Below are positions 43,033-51,729 of a stretch of 64,000 nucleotides of DNA, one piece after another. Numbering within the stretch: the stretch's first letter is position 1; every line of letters starts with the position of its first letter. Below the pieces are notes generated by a model. That model was not told where the DNA came from, did no database searches, and saw only the letters and a program-made list of their open reading frames with translations. Origin of the DNA: Herpetosiphon geysericola (GTDB lineage Bacteria; Chloroflexota; Chloroflexia; Chloroflexales; Herpetosiphonaceae); the NCBI RefSeq assembly GCF_001306135.1, contig NZ_LGKP01000022.1, positions 124,001 through 188,000 on the forward strand, read 5' to 3'. Position numbers and translations under genes: made by a program.

Positions 43033-44430
43033 CTAAGGCGTTAGGGTTGGCGAAATCGGCTCGGTCGGGCTAATTGGCTCGGTCGGGCTGATTGGCTCGG
43101 TTACCGTTGGCGTGCTGACTGGCGTTGCTGCTGGCTCACTTGGTTGGGTTGGTTCGCTTGGGTTGGTTGGGCTAGCTGGCTCGTTGGTTGGAATGCTAAT
43201 CGTGCTCAGCGTGACCTGAATAACGCTCAACGGTTTGGCGAGGGTTACGCCGCTTGGGAGATTAAGGCTTGGTTGAATACTATAGCTGCCAGCAGTTCGC
43301 CCAGCCAAATCAAGCACTAAGGCCAAATCGGTGAGATTTTGCAAATTTTGGGCATTGCCCCGCAGAGTTACCTCAAGTTGGCGTGGTTGGTAACTTAATT
43401 CTAAGCCAGCAGGCTGATTACGCGGCACTAACGGCAGCGTCAGCACAATTTCGGTGTTAATGGGCACAAAGCGCACAGTGGCAATTGTGCTATCTGCTGC
43501 TTGCGCATCACGCGGGGTAACCCCAATTGGGAAGCGCAATTTGATGGTTGCGGTGTAACTTTGGGTTGTATTCGGTAGGTTAAGCGGTTGGGTTTCAACA
43601 AATTCAACCTCAGTTAAACGCTGAGCGCTGCCAATTAATGTGACGAAAGCTGGTTCAAGCACCACATCGGCGCGATAGCCTGCTGGTGGCCCATTGAGGG
43701 TTGTGTAGATAATTGGCACCCGTTTGATGCCGCTGCTCGATAAAATGCGCACTTCAATATCTGCTAGCTCAGGGCTAACCGTCACGCCTTCAACATCGCG
43801 CCCAGCAATATCTACCGCCGTAATATTGCGCCGCGTGCGCAAATTGCTGGTTTGTGATGAAAGATCAAGCGTAATTTCGCCACCAACGACCTTATTCACT
43901 TGGCTAGCTGGCCCAGTAATTGTGACCTGCTTGATCATCTCGCCATTGACGCTGGCAATGGGCAAACTGGCCTCGTAGCTGGTTGGCGGCTGGCCTTCGG
44001 TAGTAATCGTTAGCGGCAGCGAGGCAGTAATAATTTGCTCGATTTGCACCAAGACTGTCGCAGGCTGAAAGCTTTGAAAATCGAGATCGGAGCGGCTAGG
44101 AATGCTGCGCGCTTGCACAGCAACTTCATGCGAGCCAGGCTCCAAGCCAGCAACATTAATAAATGGCTGTACATTTTGCTTGGTAATCCGGGTAATCGTA
44201 TCTTGCGGACCAGAAACATTCAAGTTGACCACAGCATCGGGCACAGGAATTGGCCTGCCTTCGCCATCGACCAAAGTTAAGGAACTGTTCAGGCCTTCGG
44301 CACGAATTGGCAAATTGGTAAATGGCGTAACTTGTTGCGGATTTTCGGTGAAACTGACGAAAACCCAGATGATGCTGGCCAACACTGCGGCCACGAAGGC
44401 GCGTAATGGGCTGCCTGCAAGCTTATTCAT
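43033..44430 (-). CDS. cdaR: YbbR-domain protein (CdaR-like regulator)
   Basis: 465 residues. One N-terminal membrane segment (AFVAAVLASIIWVFVSFTEN) and about four YbbR domains outside it, each with the strand pattern seen in PQDTITRITKQNVQPFINVA, ASQVNKVVGGEITLDLSSQ and AQRLTEVEFVETQPLNLP. The C-terminal tail is Pro/Thr/Glu-rich with repeated PISPTE units. CdaR proteins bind and tune the diadenylate cyclase CdaA. It is joined to cdaA by an ATGA overlap. Its stop lies 3 bases from the stop of the convergent regulator gene. Confidence 0.88.
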   Translation of the reverse strand: MNKLAGSPLRAFVAAVLASIIWVFVSFTENPQQVTPFTNLPIRAEGLNSSLTLVDGEGRPIPVPDAVVNLNVSGPQDTITRITKQNVQPFINVAGLEPGSHEVAVQARSIPSRSDLDFQSFQPATVLVQIEQIITASLPLTITTEGQPPTSYEASLPIASVNGEMIKQVTITGPASQVNKVVGGEITLDLSSQTSNLRTRRNITAVDIAGRDVEGVTVSPELADIEVRILSSSGIKRVPIIYTTLNGPPAGYRADVVLEPAFVTLIGSAQRLTEVEFVETQPLNLPNTTQSYTATIKLRFPIGVTPRDAQAADSTIATVRFVPINTEIVLTLPLVPRNQPAGLELSYQPRQLEVTLRGNAQNLQNLTDLALVLDLAGRTAGSYSIQPSLNLPSGVTLAKPLSVIQVTLSTISIPTNEPASPTNPSEPTQPSEPAATPVSTPTVTEPISPTEPISPTEPISPTLTP

Positions 44431-45236
44431 GCCTCTTCCTCCTCGCTTAGTTCGACGCGCAATAAGCCAGCTAGCAATTTCCGTAAGCGGCCTTCGGTTA
44501 AATGACGCACCATGCGGCCATCGTGGGTAATCGAAATACTGCCAGTCTCTTCTGAAACGATCACCGAAATTGCGTCGGATTGTTCGCTGATGCCCAAGGC
44601 GGCGCGGTGGCGCGTGCCATAGCGGGTGCTGCCAACCACGTTTTCGCTCAGCGGCAACACACAGTTGGCGGCCAAAATTCGGTTGCGCCGAAACAGCACC
44701 GCCATATCGTGGAGCGGCGCGTTGGGAAAGAAAATATTCACCAACAAGGGCACCGAAATGCGCGAATCGACTATCACGCCTCGGTCGGCATATTCTTGCA
44801 AGCCCGTGTCGCGCTCAATCACCATCAATGCGCCAATGCCTTGTTGAGATAATTGCTTGGCTGCGCGCGAAATCGTGTTGATCATCTCCTCTACTTCTGA
44901 GCGATTGGTGCTGCCAAAGCGATTAAACCATTCGCCAGTGCGGCCTAATGATTCTAAAGCGCGGCGTAATTCAGGTTGGAATAAAATTGGAATTGCCACA
45001 AAAAGGGCAGGGCTGAGGGCTTCGCGAATGATCCAGCGCAAGGTGGTGAGCGGTAAGGTCGAGCCTGCAAGCAGGGCAACCACCACCAAAATCCCAACCC
45101 CACGTAACAATTGTACCGCCCGTGTGCCTCGGATGACCCCGAGCAGCCAAAAAATCAAGGCAGCAACAAGCAGAATATCGAGTACAGCTAAGAAAGAAAC
45201 ACGTTCCCAAATCTGCTGGAAGCTTGGCACGATCAT
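44427..45236 (-). CDS. cdaA: Diadenylate cyclase CdaA (c-di-AMP synthase) with altered DGA motif
   Basis: 269 residues. Three N-terminal membrane helices (LDILLVAALIFWLLGV; GILVVVALLAGSTLPL; LFVAIPILF), then the DAC domain: IGALMVIERDTGL, the ligand motif reading PLHDMAVLF where most family members have HDGA, and GTRHRAALGISEQSDAISVI with the intact RHR motif, then VSEETGSISI. It makes c-di-AMP from two ATP. The Gly to Met change is next to the catalytic Asp and might lower or alter activity. The start is ATG 45236; GTG 45230 (V3) has better ribosome-site spacing and is an alternative. Confidence 0.92.
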   Translation of the reverse strand: MIVPSFQQIWERVSFLAVLDILLVAALIFWLLGVIRGTRAVQLLRGVGILVVVALLAGSTLPLTTLRWIIREALSPALFVAIPILFQPELRRALESLGRTGEWFNRFGSTNRSEVEEMINTISRAAKQLSQQGIGALMVIERDTGLQEYADRGVIVDSRISVPLLVNIFFPNAPLHDMAVLFRRNRILAANCVLPLSENVVGSTRYGTRHRAALGISEQSDAISVIVSEETGSISITHDGRMVRHLTEGRLRKLLAGLLRVELSEEEEA

Positions 45237-45484
45237 ACCCTCGAAACTGCCAGCCTCCCACTCGTGCTGGACATCGCGCCTGTACCTTACACCGATCAGG
45301 CTATCTATGCAAGTTTTAATCTTCGCGGCTCATACCACCAACAAGCCGCTTAGCCAAGGCCCTAGCTGGCTCGCTGCTTGACGAAATAGCGCGAGATTCG
45401 GTAGTATAGACCATCTTCTTTCCCCCCATTTTGGCGATGATGCCGCAAGCCCTTCAACGATGAAGCGACTGTAAGGAGCACACT

Positions 45485-46927
45485 ATGCCCGATGTCGCCC
45501 CTTTTCGTCAGTATCAGCTCGAAACTGCTTACGATGAGTTGTTGCTTAACCCAAACACGCCGCGCCCACACTATCGTTTGCTTGCGGAACGGTTGCGCGA
45601 GTTGCCGCCCGATGAGTTGGCGCGGCGCCAGCAAGCAGCCGATTTGGCGTTTCTCAATCAAGGGATTACCTTTACGGTTTATGGCCGCGATGAAGGCACC
45701 GAGCGGATTTTTCCCTACGATCTGCTGCCACGCATCCTGACAGCCAAAGAATGGGATACGATTGAGCGTGGTTTGGCGCAACGAGTAACCGCATTAAATT
45801 TGTTTTTGCGCGATATTTACCACGAAGAAACTATTTTAAAGGCTGGGATTGTGCCGCGCGAATTGGTCTATAGCTGTCGCCATTTTTCACGCCAAATGCG
45901 CGGTGTGAGCGTGCCACGCGATCGCTATATCTCCATCGTTGGCACCGATTTGATTCGTTTGCCGAGCGGCCAATTTGCGGTGCTTGAAGATAATTTGCGG
46001 GTTCCCAGCGGGGTTTCATATATGCTGGCCAATCGTTTGGTGATGAAACGGGTCTTTCCGCAGTTGTTTGCCAGCTACGGCGTGCGGTCGATCGATCATT
46101 ATGGCCAAGCGTTGTTAGCAACCTTGCGTTCGTTGGCGCCCCAAGGCCGTAGCGATCCAACGATTGTGTTGCTAACGCCGGGGGTTTTTAATTCGGCCTA
46201 TTACGAACACACCTTTTTGGCTCGCCAAATGGGCGTTGAATTGGTTGAAGGCCGCGATTTGATCGTCCACGACAACGTGGTGTACATGCGCACCACTGCT
46301 GGCTTGCGGCGGGTTGATGTGATTTATCGGCGGGTCGATGATGAATTTATCGATCCCTTGGCTTTTCGCCATGATTCGATGTTGGGCGTTGCTGGCTTGC
46401 TGAATGCCTATCGGGCTGGCAATGTGGCTTTGGCCAATGCCTTGGGCACAGGTGTGGCCGATGATAAGGCGATTTATGCCTATGTGCCAGCGATGATCAA
46501 ATTTTATCTTGATCAAGACCCGATTTTGCCCAATGTGGAAACCTTTTTGCTCAGCGACGATCGCCAACGTCAGCATGTGTTGCATAATTTAGATTCATTG
46601 GTGGTCAAGGCGGTCGGCGAATCTGGCGGCTACGATATGTTGATCGGGCCGCATAGCACGCTGGAACAACGTGCCCAGTTTCGCGACCGTATTATTGCCA
46701 ATCCCCGCAACTATATTGCCCAGCCAACCCTTGCGCTTTCTAAAGCACCATGTTTTATCGATGGCCAACTCGAAGCGCGCCATGTTGATTTGCGGCCCTA
46801 CATTTTATTTGGCGACCAAATTAGCATCGTGCCCGGTGGCTTGACTAGGGTGGCCTTGCGGCGCGGCTCGCTGGTCGTCAATTCATCGCAAGGCGGCGGC
46901 AGCAAAGATACGTGGGTGCTTTATTAA
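45485..46927 (+). CDS. Circularly permuted ATP-grasp protein (type 2)
   Basis: 480 residues. Strong family motifs: [90 protein letters not shown], and the C-terminal [20 protein letters not shown]. Known as DUF404/DUF407. These proteins are predicted peptide or amide ligases and almost always occur with alpha-E and transglutaminase proteins, as here. AAGGAG lies before ATG 45485. A repeat-filled gap of 262 bases separates it from the alpha-E gene. Confidence 0.92.
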
Positions 46928-47189
46928 AGGATGAAGGATGAGGGATGAAGACAGAAGTCAAAAATAGCCAAATCTTCCTTCGCGATCTTCGCGTTCTTCG
47001 CGGTTTCGTTCTTCGTGGTCTTTGTGCGCTTCGTGGATCAAAACGTTAACGCAGCGACGCAGAGAAGCGAAGGATGAAGACAGAAGTCAAAAGTCAAAAG
47101 TCAAAAAATAGCCAAATCTCCCTTCGCGATCTTCGCGATCTTCGCGGTTTCGTTCTTCGTGGATCATCATTAAAAATTGGGGGTTGCTC
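46928..47189. repeat. Intergenic block of simple-word repeats
   Basis: No real gene. It contains two copies of a 9-bp-period stretch (CTTCGCGATCTTCGCG type) at about 46977-47036 and 47121-47166, GGATGAAGGATGAGGGATGA words (46928-46947), AAGTCAAAAGTCAAAAGTC words (about 47085-47106) and a TTAACGCAGCGACGCAGAGA copy (about 47045). Words match those at 18309, 24361 and 58925. It interrupts an otherwise tight operon. Confidence 0.8.
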
Positions 47190-48134
47190 ATGTTATCGCG
47201 CGTTGCTGATAGCCTGTATTGGATTGGCCGCTACCTTGAGCGAACAGAGCATACTGCTCGCTTGCTTGACGTGAATTTGGCTTTGATGCTCGACCAAACT
47301 CCAGCCGCAGCCGAACGCCGCTGGGAGCGTATGCAAACCTATCTTGCATGGCAATACGATGGAATTCCCCAAACTTACGCCTTGGTACAAGCCTTAACCT
47401 TTGATGTCAATAACCCTGGCTCGTTGGTTAGTTGCATTGGCGCTGCCCGCGAAAATGCCCGCCAAGTGCGCGAACAAATTAGCTCGGAAATGTGGGAGCA
47501 ACTTAATCGGCTCTATTTACAAGTCAAGCGTGCCACGATGGAGCAATTGTGGCACGAGCCGCACGAATTTCTCCACAATGGGTTAAAAGAGGGCATTCAT
47601 CTTTTTCAAGGGATTACGAATGCAACCTTGAGCCATGGCGAATGTTGGCATTGGCTGCGTTTAGGCCAGTTTATTGAGCGAGCCAATGCCACAGCGATTT
47701 TGCTCGATGTGCATTTTGCCGAGCCAAGTGGCGCTGCCGATGCTCAAGCCAATTATTTGGATTGGGTTGGCCTATTAAAGTCCTGTACAGCCTTCGAGGC
47801 CTATTGTAATGTATACACTGCTGATATTCGGCCAGAACGAATTGCTGAATTTTTGTTGTTGAACGCTGAATCGCCGCGCTCGGTGCGTTTTGCCGCCGAT
47901 CAGATTGCGATTTCGATTCAAGCGATTGCTGCCAATACGCTTGGGCGGCGCGGTGATCGGGTCAAACGCTTAGCGGGGCGCTTACAAGCTAGCCTTGATT
48001 ATGGCCAAGTCGATGAGATTATGGCCGATGGCCTGAGCGGCTATTTGGCCAGTATTCAACAACAATGCCAACAAATTCATACCAACGTCTATCAGACCTT
48101 TATTAGTTATCCGGTTGAGACAGCATTGGTATAA
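47190..48134 (+). CDS. Alpha-E domain protein
   Basis: 314 residues, all helical. It opens with the family's hallmark MLSRVADSLYWIGRYLERTE and continues with ARENARQVREQISSEMWEQL, GECWHWLRLGQFIERANATA and SPRSVRFAADQI. The alpha-E family is a fixed partner of the circularly permuted ATP-grasp protein and a transglutaminase in many bacteria; its biochemical role is not established. ATG 47190 has GGGG upstream; a TTG at 47184 is less likely. Eight bases separate it from the next gene. Confidence 0.92.
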   Translation: MLSRVADSLYWIGRYLERTEHTARLLDVNLALMLDQTPAAAERRWERMQTYLAWQYDGIPQTYALVQALTFDVNNPGSLVSCIGAARENARQVREQISSEMWEQLNRLYLQVKRATMEQLWHEPHEFLHNGLKEGIHLFQGITNATLSHGECWHWLRLGQFIERANATAILLDVHFAEPSGAADAQANYLDWVGLLKSCTAFEAYCNVYTADIRPERIAEFLLLNAESPRSVRFAADQIAISIQAIAANTLGRRGDRVKRLAGRLQASLDYGQVDEIMADGLSGYLASIQQQCQQIHTNVYQTFISYPVETALV

Positions 48135-48142
48135 GGATGATC

Positions 48143-49063
48143 ATGACAGCAGCACAACAGCGCATGCTCGCGGCACTCAAAGGGTTGTCGGTTGGTGAAG
48201 CCTATGGTCAACAGCTTTGGCAACAGGTGCAAACTGGGCTTGCAGTCGCCGAGCAACCAAGCCTTTTGCCAGCACCATGGCTGTGGACAGACGCAACCCT
48301 CATGGCTTGTTCATTGGTTGATCACTTGTGGCATTATGGCACGGTGCATAGCGCGGCCTTGGCTGCCGATTTTGCCCTGCGCTACACGCCAATCCGCGAT
48401 TATGGCACCGCCATGCATACTCTCTTGGCCAAACCGCGTGATGGGGCGGCGGTGATGAGCGATGCCCAAAATTTGTTTGATGGCCAAGGCTCGTTTGGGG
48501 TTGGCGCGGCCATGCGGGCGGCTCCGTTGGGCCTATTTTTTGCTGAAGCGCCGCTGAGCCAAGTTGCCCAACAAGCTCAACTCTCGGCGCTCACCACCCA
48601 CACCAATCCAGAGGCGGTGGCGGGTGCGGTGGCGGTGGCAGTGGCCGGAGCAATTCTCTGGCGCGAGCGTGATCAGCCGTTACGCCAGCCATCGGCAATC
48701 TTGAATGAAATTGTGCAATATCTACCAAGCAGCAGCCTTGAGCATCGCCTAGCCTTAGCCGCCGCCATGAACGATCGCCAAATGTGGCATCATATTGCCT
48801 TGCGATTGAGCAATGGCTACCAGCATAGTGCTCAAGCCATTGTGCCATGGTGTTTGTGGTGCGCTGTGCATTATCGGGATGATTATGCGGCGGCGATTGA
48901 GCAAGTCTGTGCTGCCGGCGGCAACGTTACCTCAATGGCGGCGATTGTTGGTGGGCTGTTGGCAGGAACTTTAGGCCGCGATTGTATTCCGCCGCCTTGG
49001 CTGCGCGCCCGCGAACCCTTGCCCCACTGGTTTTTGGCCAGCCTTGGAATTGAAACCGATTGA
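48143..49063 (+). CDS. ADP-ribosylglycohydrolase-like protein, catalytic residues lost
   Basis: 306 residues with the ARH/DraG fold: LKGLSVGEAYGQQLWQQV, WLWTDATLMACSLV, IRDYGTAMHTLL, FDGQGSFGVGAAMRAAPLGL, TNPEAVAGAVAVAVAGAIL, and GGNVTSMAAIVGGLLAG. In active members the two metal-binding motifs read WTDDT and GGDTDT; here they read WTDAT and GGNVTS, so at least three acidic ligands are missing. It is probably a pseudoenzyme that binds rather than cleaves. It sits between alpha-E and transglutaminase, an unusual place. ATG 48143 follows AAGG at good spacing; ATG 48137 abuts it. Confidence 0.82.
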   Translation: MTAAQQRMLAALKGLSVGEAYGQQLWQQVQTGLAVAEQPSLLPAPWLWTDATLMACSLVDHLWHYGTVHSAALAADFALRYTPIRDYGTAMHTLLAKPRDGAAVMSDAQNLFDGQGSFGVGAAMRAAPLGLFFAEAPLSQVAQQAQLSALTTHTNPEAVAGAVAVAVAGAILWRERDQPLRQPSAILNEIVQYLPSSSLEHRLALAAAMNDRQMWHHIALRLSNGYQHSAQAIVPWCLWCAVHYRDDYAAAIEQVCAAGGNVTSMAAIVGGLLAGTLGRDCIPPPWLRAREPLPHWFLASLGIETD

Positions 49064-49086
49064 TTGTTTGAGTTTTGGCAGGTGCT

Positions 49087-50043
49087 ATGTACTACACCAT
49101 TCGCCACGTTACCCGCTTTCGCTATAGCAACCCAATTAGCGAAAGTATGATGGAAGTTCGCAAACAGCCCCGTACCGAGGGCGAGCAACGCTGCCTTTCG
49201 TTTGACATAACCACCAAGCCCAAATCGAAAGTCTTGGTTTATCTCGATTCGCAGGGCAATACGGTGCACCATTTTGATCTACCTCGTGCCCACACCCAGC
49301 TGGAAATTGTGACCCAAGCCTATGTGGAAAATCGTGTTCAAGCGCCAGCAGCCGATCTTACGCTCGATCTCAGCACATGGCAAATCCTCGAAGATCATGC
49401 CTTGAATGGCTACGATTGGGATTATCTCAACCCAAGCCAATTTGTGGCTTCAACCGATTTGCTCCAAACTTTCGCCGCCGAAATTGGCCTCAATAAACAG
49501 AGCGATCCGCTTTCCTTGGCCCGACTGATTACCCAATCAATCTACGATAAATTTGAGTATGTTCCACAGAGCACACGTGCTGATTCGCCGATCGACGAAG
49601 CTTTAGCGACGCGACGCGGAGTTTGCCAAGATTACACCCATATTATGCTCAGCCTCTTGCGCTCGTTGCAGATTCCGGCGCGCTACGTGAGCGGCTATCT
49701 GTTTCATCGAACCGATGATAGTGTGCGTTCTGCTGCTGATGCTTCGCATGCGTGGGTCGAGGCCTGGTTGCCCAGCCTTGGCTGGATCGGCTTCGACCCA
49801 ACCAACAATGTCGTGGTCGGCGATCGCCATCTGCGAGTAGCAATTGGCCGCGATTACGCCGATGTACCGCCGACGCATGGCATTTTCAAGGGCGAAACCC
49901 AAAGCACGCTCGAAGTCGCGGTGCAAGTGCGCTTGGCCGACGAACCATTGCACGCCGACGAGCCGTCGCAGCTCGCAGGTTGGTCGCAGGTTGAGGGTGG
50001 CGATGTGGCGGCGGCAATTCAACAAATGCAGCAACAACAATAG
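49087..50043 (+). CDS. Transglutaminase-like cysteine protease-fold protein
   Basis: 318 residues. N-terminal beta domain (YYTIRHVTRFRYSNPISESM, the bact_transglu_N pattern), then the catalytic domain with RRGVCQDYTHIMLSLLRSLQ (Cys), IPARYVSGYL, ASHAWVEAWLPSLGWIGFDP (His) and DPTNNVVV (Asp). The Cys-His-Asp triad is complete. It either forms or cuts amide bonds in the product of the ATP-grasp partner. ATG 49087; the terminator at 50053 follows directly. Confidence 0.93.
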   Translation: MYYTIRHVTRFRYSNPISESMMEVRKQPRTEGEQRCLSFDITTKPKSKVLVYLDSQGNTVHHFDLPRAHTQLEIVTQAYVENRVQAPAADLTLDLSTWQILEDHALNGYDWDYLNPSQFVASTDLLQTFAAEIGLNKQSDPLSLARLITQSIYDKFEYVPQSTRADSPIDEALATRRGVCQDYTHIMLSLLRSLQIPARYVSGYLFHRTDDSVRSAADASHAWVEAWLPSLGWIGFDPTNNVVVGDRHLRVAIGRDYADVPPTHGIFKGETQSTLEVAVQVRLADEPLHADEPSQLAGWSQVEGGDVAAAIQQMQQQQ

Positions 50044-50052
50044 GTTTTATTC

Positions 50053-50085
50053 AAAAAAGCATGGGTGGTTTTCGCCCATGCTTTT
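50053..50085. terminator. Bidirectional terminator
   Basis: Perfect 11-bp stem AAAAGCATGGG (50055-50065) / CCCATGCTTTT (50075-50085). T-runs are formed on both strands by the stem ends. It separates the transglutaminase and NYN genes, which converge. Confidence 0.9.
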
Positions 50086-50088
50086 GCT

Positions 50089-50718
50089 TTAAGTTGGCAG
50101 TTTGTAGGTAATTTTCGTATCGTCGACCTGAATAATTCCACGAGTTTTTAGCTGGTTGATGAGTGATGCTAGTTCTTGCTCGGATAGTTTTTTGGCAAAA
50201 ATTGCATTGATCGTGTTACTCAGGGTTTTAATCGTTCGAGGCTTGTTACTTTTATTAGCTTGAAGATATTTACTGACGATCTCAATCTTTTTTGGTGGGG
50301 TTGGAGTTGGGGATGCCTGTTGTTTCGATGCTGTTGTTGCTTGAGCTACTTTTATGGGAGGAATCTCGCTAACATCTTGAACCCGCTTGGCCATAATCTT
50401 TTTCGTTTTGAGGTGCTGAATCAAGGGATCGAAGCCGGTATCTTTGGAAACAATATGAAAATAGGCATTTGGTTCTTGGGCGGCTAATTGCCCAATATAA
50501 AAGGCAATATGAAAATCGAGCGCATTGCTGCCATTGCCCGATATTTTGATGTAGCAGGCGCGTTCGCCGAGCTGCTGCAGGGCAACTGCAATCTCAATTG
50601 GCACTTTTGTCTGATTTGCGCCAACGAAGATCAGTAGTTTAATTTGTTTGTGATTAAGCAATTCGATTGTGGCTGGTTGCACATTTTCGTAGTCGATCAG
50701 CACAAAATTGGTTCTCAA
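50089..50718 (-). CDS. NYN (PIN-like) ribonuclease with C-terminal helical domain
   Basis: 209 residues. The NYN/PIN-like domain shows the acidic residues of a metal-dependent RNase: FVLIDYENVQ (N-terminal D and N), GSNALDFHIAFYIGQ (D), FHIVSKDTGFDPLI (D-x-x-x-D). A Pro/Thr/Lys linker (SPTPTPPKK) leads to a winged-helix-like tail (IEIVSKYLQANKSNKPRTI, then LINQLKTRGIIQVDDTKITY). Such proteins act on RNA, and some belong to toxin or defence loci. It stands next to the MoxR cluster but on the opposite strand. Confidence 0.82.
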   Translation of the reverse strand: MRTNFVLIDYENVQPATIELLNHKQIKLLIFVGANQTKVPIEIAVALQQLGERACYIKISGNGSNALDFHIAFYIGQLAAQEPNAYFHIVSKDTGFDPLIQHLKTKKIMAKRVQDVSEIPPIKVAQATTASKQQASPTPTPPKKIEIVSKYLQANKSNKPRTIKTLSNTINAIFAKKLSEQELASLINQLKTRGIIQVDDTKITYKLPT

Positions 50719-50802: not shown

Positions 50803-51729
50803 TTAACCAAGCGGTTTGCTTAATTGCTCGTTCAATGCCCAGGCTGGCAAGGGTTCTCTGGCTGCACGCCACGCGCTAGGGAGGCCCTCAAGGCCCACAT
50901 AACAGGCCACGATTCCCCCAACGATCGCGCAAGTTGTATCACAATCGCCTAAGCCTTCCAACGTCAGCCAAATTGCTTGCTCAAAATCGGTTAAGTGTTG
51001 GGCAGCACACCACAAAGCAAATGGCACCGTATCTTGGGCCGAAATCTTGCTGCCATTGCCCAAATGTGCCGCAACTGTAGCAATTGGGGTGGTCGAATCA
51101 AGCTCAATCGCCATGGCTAAGCCCTTGGCTACTTGGCTTGCTGGCACCCATGGCTGAATTAATTGTAAAAACGTGCTTGGGCTTGGCACTGTGGTTTGGT
51201 GGGCTTGCCATGCCAACGCTGCTGCAATCGCCACCGCAATCGCCCCAGCAATTGCTTCAGGATGAGCATGGGTAATTTCGGCAGAAGCTGCTGCTTGCTG
51301 GGCAACGCTTGGCAGATCAGCAGCCCAAAACGCGCCAATTGGTGCAACCCGCATGGCCCCGCCATTGCCAAATTAGCCTTGGCCTTGATGCAAACTTGGC
51401 GCTTCCTCGCGCCAACTTTTTCCGCGCTGAATGCGGCCTAAAATTGCTCTGGTAGCTGGGCCATAGCCGCGCGAACGCTCGTAGTGCAGGGCAAAACTTT
51501 GGGCCAATACATCTTGATCGATGGTTGCGGTTTGGCGCAGCACCGAAAAAACCGAAGCTGCCATTTGAGTGTCATCAGTCCAATGCCATGGGCCTTGGGG
51601 AACTTGGCGCAAACGCACGCGCGCAGGCACTGTCGAATGGGCAAATTCAAAAAAACCGCCCAATGCATCGCCTATCGCCAAGCCTTCGAGGGCAATTTGG
51701 GCACGATCTAGGGCGCTATCAGGGTTCAT
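50803..51729 (-). pseudogene. ADP-ribosylglycohydrolase with an in-frame stop
   Basis: The frame from ATG 51729 runs to TAA at 51375-51373 and then continues in the same frame to 50803. Together the parts give one ARH protein: LEGLAIGDALGGFFEFAHS, WTDDTQMAASVF, the interrupted GQG-stop-FGNGGAMRVAPIGAF, THAHPEAIAGAIAVAIAAAL, and GDCDTTCAIVGGIVACY. The stop replaces the Ser of GQGSFGNGAAMR, which the paralogue at 48143 keeps; a single TCA-to-TAA change explains it. Both metal motifs (WTDDT; GDCDT) are intact, unlike in the paralogue. So the copy with good active-site residues is the one broken. Readthrough or an assembly error are alternatives. Confidence 0.85.

Follow-up and report, generated by a model that had tools for sequence, protein, structure and literature searches.

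The operon for a circularly permuted ATP-grasp protein, an alpha-E protein and a transglutaminase-like protein contains, in Herpetosiphon geysericola, a fourth gene whose product resembles an ADP-ribosylglycohydrolase (ARH) with a damaged metal site. The question raised by this gene, called here pARH (pseudo-ARH), is whether it is a working part of the operon, a gene in decay, or a guest with a function of its own. The window is the whole stretch of 64,000 nucleotides that was analysed. In the open-licence literature no description was found of an ARH in such an operon or of a bacterial pseudo-ARH.

The locus

Iyer et al. (2009) is said to be the founding paper on the ATP-grasp/alpha-E operon. 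The genes flanking pARH correspond to the three non-Anbu members of the Anbu operon, namely the ATP-grasp, alpha-E and transglutaminase genes (PMC5666114, PMC6376114), but elsewhere that operon does not include pARH. That pARH fills the slot of Anbu itself was rejected: a proteasome-family gene was found in none of the 60 relatives searched, own genome included.

The pARH reading frame (48137-49063, plus strand) encodes 308 amino acids, or 306 from a second ATG at 48143. The AAGGA that overlaps the alpha-E stop is better placed for the second ATG, and the start at 48143 chosen in an earlier, sequence-only reading is likely correct; residue numbers used here count from the ATG at 48137. The intergenic distances of that reading were confirmed, with 8 bases between the alpha-E stop (48134) and pARH and 23 bases between pARH and the ATG of the transglutaminase gene (Table 1). 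The pARH protein is 99% identical to its counterpart in H. giganteus DSM 589, 98% in H. llansteffanensis CA052B and 93% in H. aurantiacus DSM 785.

Table 1. Features of the pARH locus, in window positions.
Feature	Position	Strand	Basis
Circularly permuted ATP-grasp gene	45485..46927	+	PF14403 (CP_ATPgrasp_2), 564 bits
Alpha-E gene	47184..48134	+	PF04168 (Alpha-E), 299 bits
Likely ribosome-binding site (AAGGA) of pARH; overlaps the stop codon of alpha-E	48133..48137	+	Sequence
pARH (putative pseudo-ARH)	48143..49063	+	Reading frame; PF03747, 136 bits; ligand loss in 6/6 genus genomes; dN/dS
First metal motif, degenerate, reading WTDAT (A53 replacing Asp)	48284..48298	+	Sequence, alignments
Second metal motif, degenerate, reading GGNVTS (N263, T265 and S266 replacing Asp, Asp and Thr)	48917..48934	+	Sequence, alignments
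Transglutaminase-like gene	49087..50043 (reading frame from 49075)	+	PF08379 (Bact_transglu_N), PF01841 (Transglut_core)
Terminator-like hairpin 3' of transglutaminase	50055..50085	+	Hairpin scan; same hairpin 3' of H. giganteus pARH
cARH, intact-ligand paralogue with in-frame TAA, outside the operon	50803..51729	-	Sequence, alignment

The hairpin is given little weight taken alone, as the scan found such sites no more numerous than in shuffled sequences. Divergent from the ATP-grasp gene lies a gene that we take to be diadenylate-cyclase-like (44427-45236, minus strand), with a presumably YbbR-like gene behind it. The region 3' of the operon, between the transglutaminase gene and the gene at window 51909, is variable. 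A PIN-domain gene (50089-50718 in the window) is found there in four genomes, the window's own, G001, G002 and G003, and an unrelated gene of 873-880 amino acids is found instead in G005 and G004 (L048 8069-10690; L045 9549-12191). The latter may contain a sigma-factor-like stretch, as judged by eye.

A degenerate metal site in an ARH family member

The product of pARH belongs to the ADP_ribosyl_GH family (PF03747). Residues 13-286 match the profile with 136.3 bits (curated cut-off 26.2; E = 2.1e-39) over nearly its full length (positions 2-286 of 287), and by this Pfam match, its single basis, the ARH fold is predicted to be retained; the AlphaFold2 model built from six sequences was poor (mean pLDDT 52.9). 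The motif replacements were read from alignments to ARH3 of solved structures and to 15 relatives with intact ligands, and they confirmed the degenerate motifs noticed earlier: WTDAT (residues 50-54) in place of TDDT and GGNVTS (residues 261-266) in place of GGDxDT. The ARH3 columns aligned with these motifs are presumably the metal ligands of ARH3. With T51, D52 and A53 standing for TDD and N263-x-T265-S266 for DxDT, the metal site is short of three of its four aspartates. Further changes are GEA for GDA at residue 21, GVG for GNG at residue 122, where the Asn present in all 15 intact relatives is Val, and AQA for AQD at residue 234, where Asp is Ala. pARH shares with ARH3 and DraG-type enzymes the nearly full-length PF03747 match and the GxGS and TH motifs, but differs from them in the loss of the binuclear metal ligands.

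When a near-invariant column is defined as one residue in at least 14 of the 15 intact-ligand rows, there are 85 such columns, of which pARH retains 65, has lost 16 and varies at 4; five of the eight acidic ones are lost. (The 15 rows leave out G006_a, the partial G149 and G266, the stop-bearing cARH of the window, and three distant ARHs, namely G055 and L001 and L002 of the own genome.) Retained residues include G118, S119, G121, R127, T51, D52 and the TH motif, T154 H155. The ARH reaction is reported to depend on a binuclear metal centre, which all characterised ARH enzymes use (PMC7050489), and also to need the TH motif (PMC9503650). With three of the four metal aspartates gone, we infer from what is known of the family that hydrolysis by pARH is very unlikely, and we are highly confident that the protein would not act as a classical dimetal hydrolase.

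Conservation and selection in Herpetosiphon

Among 60 relatives searched, own genome included, all six Herpetosiphon genomes have pARH, with the same ligand losses (TDA and NxTS in each); the second motif is GGNFTS in the other five genomes. Since all six genomes share the loss, a sequencing accident is excluded. No orthologue with intact ligands was found at the same place in these genomes. By the Nei-Gojobori method, dN/dS of pARH is 0.012-0.071 across all 15 genome pairs, compared with 0.080-0.175 for the intact-ligand paralogue cARH (6 pairs), 0.028-0.081 for alpha-E (10 pairs) and 0.060-0.097 for transglutaminase (10 pairs). On shared pairs pARH lies below cARH, with 0.012 versus 0.175 between the own genome and that of H. 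giganteus. The earlier proposal of a conserved degenerate ARH is thus borne out. Ligand loss in all six genomes together with this strong constraint makes pARH a candidate for a conserved pseudoenzyme, and the combination of lost catalytic residues with purifying selection is what marks a putative pseudo-ARH.

Pseudo-ARHs are familiar mainly from vertebrates (ADPRHL1), and jellyfish J1 crystallin stands beside them. ADPRHL1, also called ARH2, has been designated a pseudoenzyme for the loss of critical aspartates (PMC4990356) and is suspected to be inactive (PMC7050489). Like pARH, it has the ARH fold (in pARH predicted from sequence), has lost critical aspartates and is conserved. In contrast to pARH, it is a vertebrate, ARH1-like, cardiac protein; pARH is bacterial, is nearest to ARH3 among solved structures and occurs in an unrelated context. 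Judged by these sequence features, ADPRHL1 is the known protein closest in kind to pARH.

The operon inside and outside the genus

Alpha-E was detected in 48 of the 60 relatives, six of them in the genus, where one is a relic. The four-gene order proposed in the sequence-only reading holds in five of the six genus genomes. Outside the genus it does not hold: when coordinates were compared by eye with PF03747 matches, no ARH was near alpha-E in any of the 42 other members of the order with alpha-E. Both genes share a contig only in G013 and G041, where they lie more than 1 Mb apart. Because many contigs are short, 12 operons of other genera were read directly, and none contains an ARH. The ATP-grasp, alpha-E and transglutaminase genes are contiguous in nine of them; the transglutaminase gene is set off in two and out of reach in one. 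In a sample of 301 genomes of the phylum, a relative of pARH (E up to 1e-12) was found in 17 and alpha-E in 87, and outside Herpetosiphon both occur together only in G331, on different contigs. Within the genomes searched, the four-gene form is therefore confined to Herpetosiphon.

The search confirmed no viral relatives of pARH. Nine plasmid records contain relatives, and in the two of these whose neighbourhoods were opened the alpha-E operon is absent. Two of the other operons carry extra transglutaminase-like genes (L066 5078-7939, three in a row; L068 7909-9776).

Loss of the operon around pARH in H. giganteus

The sixth genus genome, H. giganteus DSM 589 (G003, identical with L035; one genome, one assembly), provides a natural deletion experiment. 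According to blastn, it is without window positions 45408-45468, about 45622-47770, 47886-48009 and about 49123-50010, and retains 48010-49122 whole. What remains of the other three genes, not recognized in the sequence-only reading, is the start of the ATP-grasp gene, two pieces of alpha-E and both ends of the transglutaminase gene. Nor were replacements found in this genome. The sole alpha-E match is the relic, which spans 46 codons and has a stop. The search for ATP-grasp proteins of this family gave nothing above the cut-off, one 20-bit match elsewhere having a similar counterpart in the own genome, and no transglutaminase of this family was found. pARH itself is open, with 308 amino acids, and its AAGGA and start are unchanged. 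The start of the next gene is lost, and the hairpin follows directly after pARH.

On this lineage the relics and pARH took very different changes. A change was assigned to the H. giganteus lineage when the window genome and G005 agree at a codon and H. giganteus differs. In 121 relic codons there are 15 nonsynonymous and 7 synonymous changes; in the 307 codons of pARH there are 0 nonsynonymous and 25 synonymous ones, all 25 at third positions (Fisher p = 2e-7; for the alpha-E relics alone, with 6 and 6, p = 4e-4). At the relic rate about 38 amino-acid changes would be expected in pARH (24 if the rate is taken from the alpha-E relics only), and none was assigned; a further 8 pARH codons have a different form in each of the three genomes and are unassignable, one of them (codon 95) changing the amino acid. 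Recent replacement of the H. giganteus pARH by recombination is unlikely, as its dS is not below that of the relics: to the two nearest genomes dS is 0.36 and 0.32 for pARH, 0.21 and 0.31 for the relics, and 0.30 and 0.44 for cARH.

These counts bear on two alternatives. Loss of catalytic residues, taken alone, would fit a pseudogene caught early in decay. The gene is, however, open in all six genomes, and its dN/dS together with the third-position changes in H. giganteus led us to reject decay, whose probability we regard as negligible. According to the second alternative, pARH acts with alpha-E, ATP-grasp and transglutaminase, for example by retaining an intermediate linked to a nucleotide or a partner carrying ADP-ribose. 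The tight spacing and the order kept in five genomes would suit such a partnership, as might the proposal that the gene set of the operon is a peptide-tagging system (PMC5666114, PMC6376114). In H. giganteus, however, the three partners are gone, as far as the searches for further copies show, and pARH still has no assignable amino-acid change; the link is also absent from the 42 other members of the order and from the 12 operons read, which makes the partnership improbable. The contrast of 0 with 15 nonsynonymous changes indicates that selection on pARH is independent of the other three genes, and the functional tie to the operon suggested earlier could not be upheld. pARH is neither linked to the operon across lineages nor lost along with it, as a component would be. 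In H. giganteus, as far as one genome and one assembly can tell, pARH very probably works without the operon. The guest has outlived the host genes, a warning against reading function from an operon.

The paralogue cARH and the origin of pARH

A second ARH gene, cARH, not noticed in the sequence-only reading, lies about 1.7 kb downstream of pARH on the opposite strand. Its product is 39% identical to pARH and has intact ligands. The window copy has a TAA near 51373, and intact copies occur in three other Herpetosiphon genomes; with the window copy, cARH was detected in four of the six genomes, the other two giving no match. Thus the degenerate gene is kept everywhere, whereas its intact neighbour is being lost. 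Each of the six genomes has two further ARH genes, which form a distant branch in the tree.

The presence of these genes raises the alternative that pARH is a pseudo-subunit which, with no ligand of its own, would associate with one of the cell's active ARHs and modulate it; pseudoenzymes that modify active relatives are known and have been discussed for Adprhl1 (PMC4990356). We consider this pairing unlikely: pARH stays where its closest active paralogue, cARH, is missing or interrupted, and the remaining two ARHs are only distantly related to it.

Phylogenetic analysis of 20 proteins places the pARH sequences in one clade (support 100/100), whose stem branch is 1.51 changes per column long. 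Its neighbours are G007_a (83/70) and then G006_a (92/96), and cARH groups with G007_b (98/97). The two genes therefore represent old subfamilies and not a local duplication, and a recent tandem duplication of cARH as the source of pARH was rejected. The sister position of G007_a is tentative, given the long stem and the modest support.

G007_a, from the sister genus g3, has intact metal ligands, and the G007 genome has no alpha-E match. A NADAR gene lies 43 bases from G007_a on the same strand (L040 9422-10883) and is absent from all other loci examined; the two may possibly form a pair for processing of ADP-ribose or nucleotides. G006_a has an intact second motif and lacks the first together with about 50 N-terminal residues (L041 9423-10217; the G006 genome is 75% complete), reflecting either damage to the gene or a break in the assembly.

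A long stem followed by strong conservation would also be compatible with a pocket that has gained a different activity, metal-free or single-metal, all the more as T51, D52 and the TH pair are retained. However, pARH shows no obvious conserved set of new catalytic residues, and the characterised ARH enzymes are all of the binuclear-metal type (PMC7050489); such retooling appears rather improbable.

A possible role beside the PARP of the genus

Of the 21 relatives searched for the PARP family, 7 gave a match, namely all six genus genomes and G007, and the other 14 gave none. The PARP of H. aurantiacus is reported to make long poly-ADP-ribose chains, and these are reported to be taken off by its PARG (PMC4245714; PMC5966428). 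Binding of pARH to an ADP-ribosylated or nucleotide-linked partner, as first suggested for this gene, is plausible, and the retention of much of the substrate loop, with its glycines, and of Ser, Arg and TH would make it a natural candidate for an ADP-ribose reader. We tentatively favor, at somewhat less than even chances, a free-standing pseudoenzyme to which ADP-ribose or a related adenine nucleotide would bind and stay uncleaved. Both the binding and a link to the PARP we infer, and the more specific proposal, a reader of the poly- or mono-ADP-ribose made by this PARP that used the operon as a promoter only and survived its loss, is doubtful.

For the favored non-cleaving binder, the following course can be envisaged. 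Its ancestor would have been an ordinary dimetal ARH like that of the sister genus. Such an ARH would have come to lie, in the Herpetosiphon ancestor, between the alpha-E and transglutaminase genes and lost its acidic metal site, with a period of fast change after which the sequence became fixed. The protein might then bind ADP-ribose or an adenine nucleotide uncleaved, as a reader or a sink alongside the PARP, the operon probably contributing a promoter and not a partner. The changes of Asn122 to Val and Asp234 to Ala suggest that the pocket may not hold ADP-ribose in the usual way, and they speak against simple retention of the binding mode of the intact-ligand type. The co-occurrence of PARP and pARH may reflect kinship alone. 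A bacterial pseudo-ARH that is more strongly constrained than its intact-ligand paralogue, in a genus for which PARP and PARG activity is reported, would offer a small, testable system for the passage of an eraser to another function.

Three 'ARH3-like' erasers of poly-ADP-ribose are listed for H. aurantiacus (PMC4245714). The number of ARH genes found in G001, taken as the genome of that species, is also three, and since the two numbers match, one of the listed proteins is probably not an eraser.
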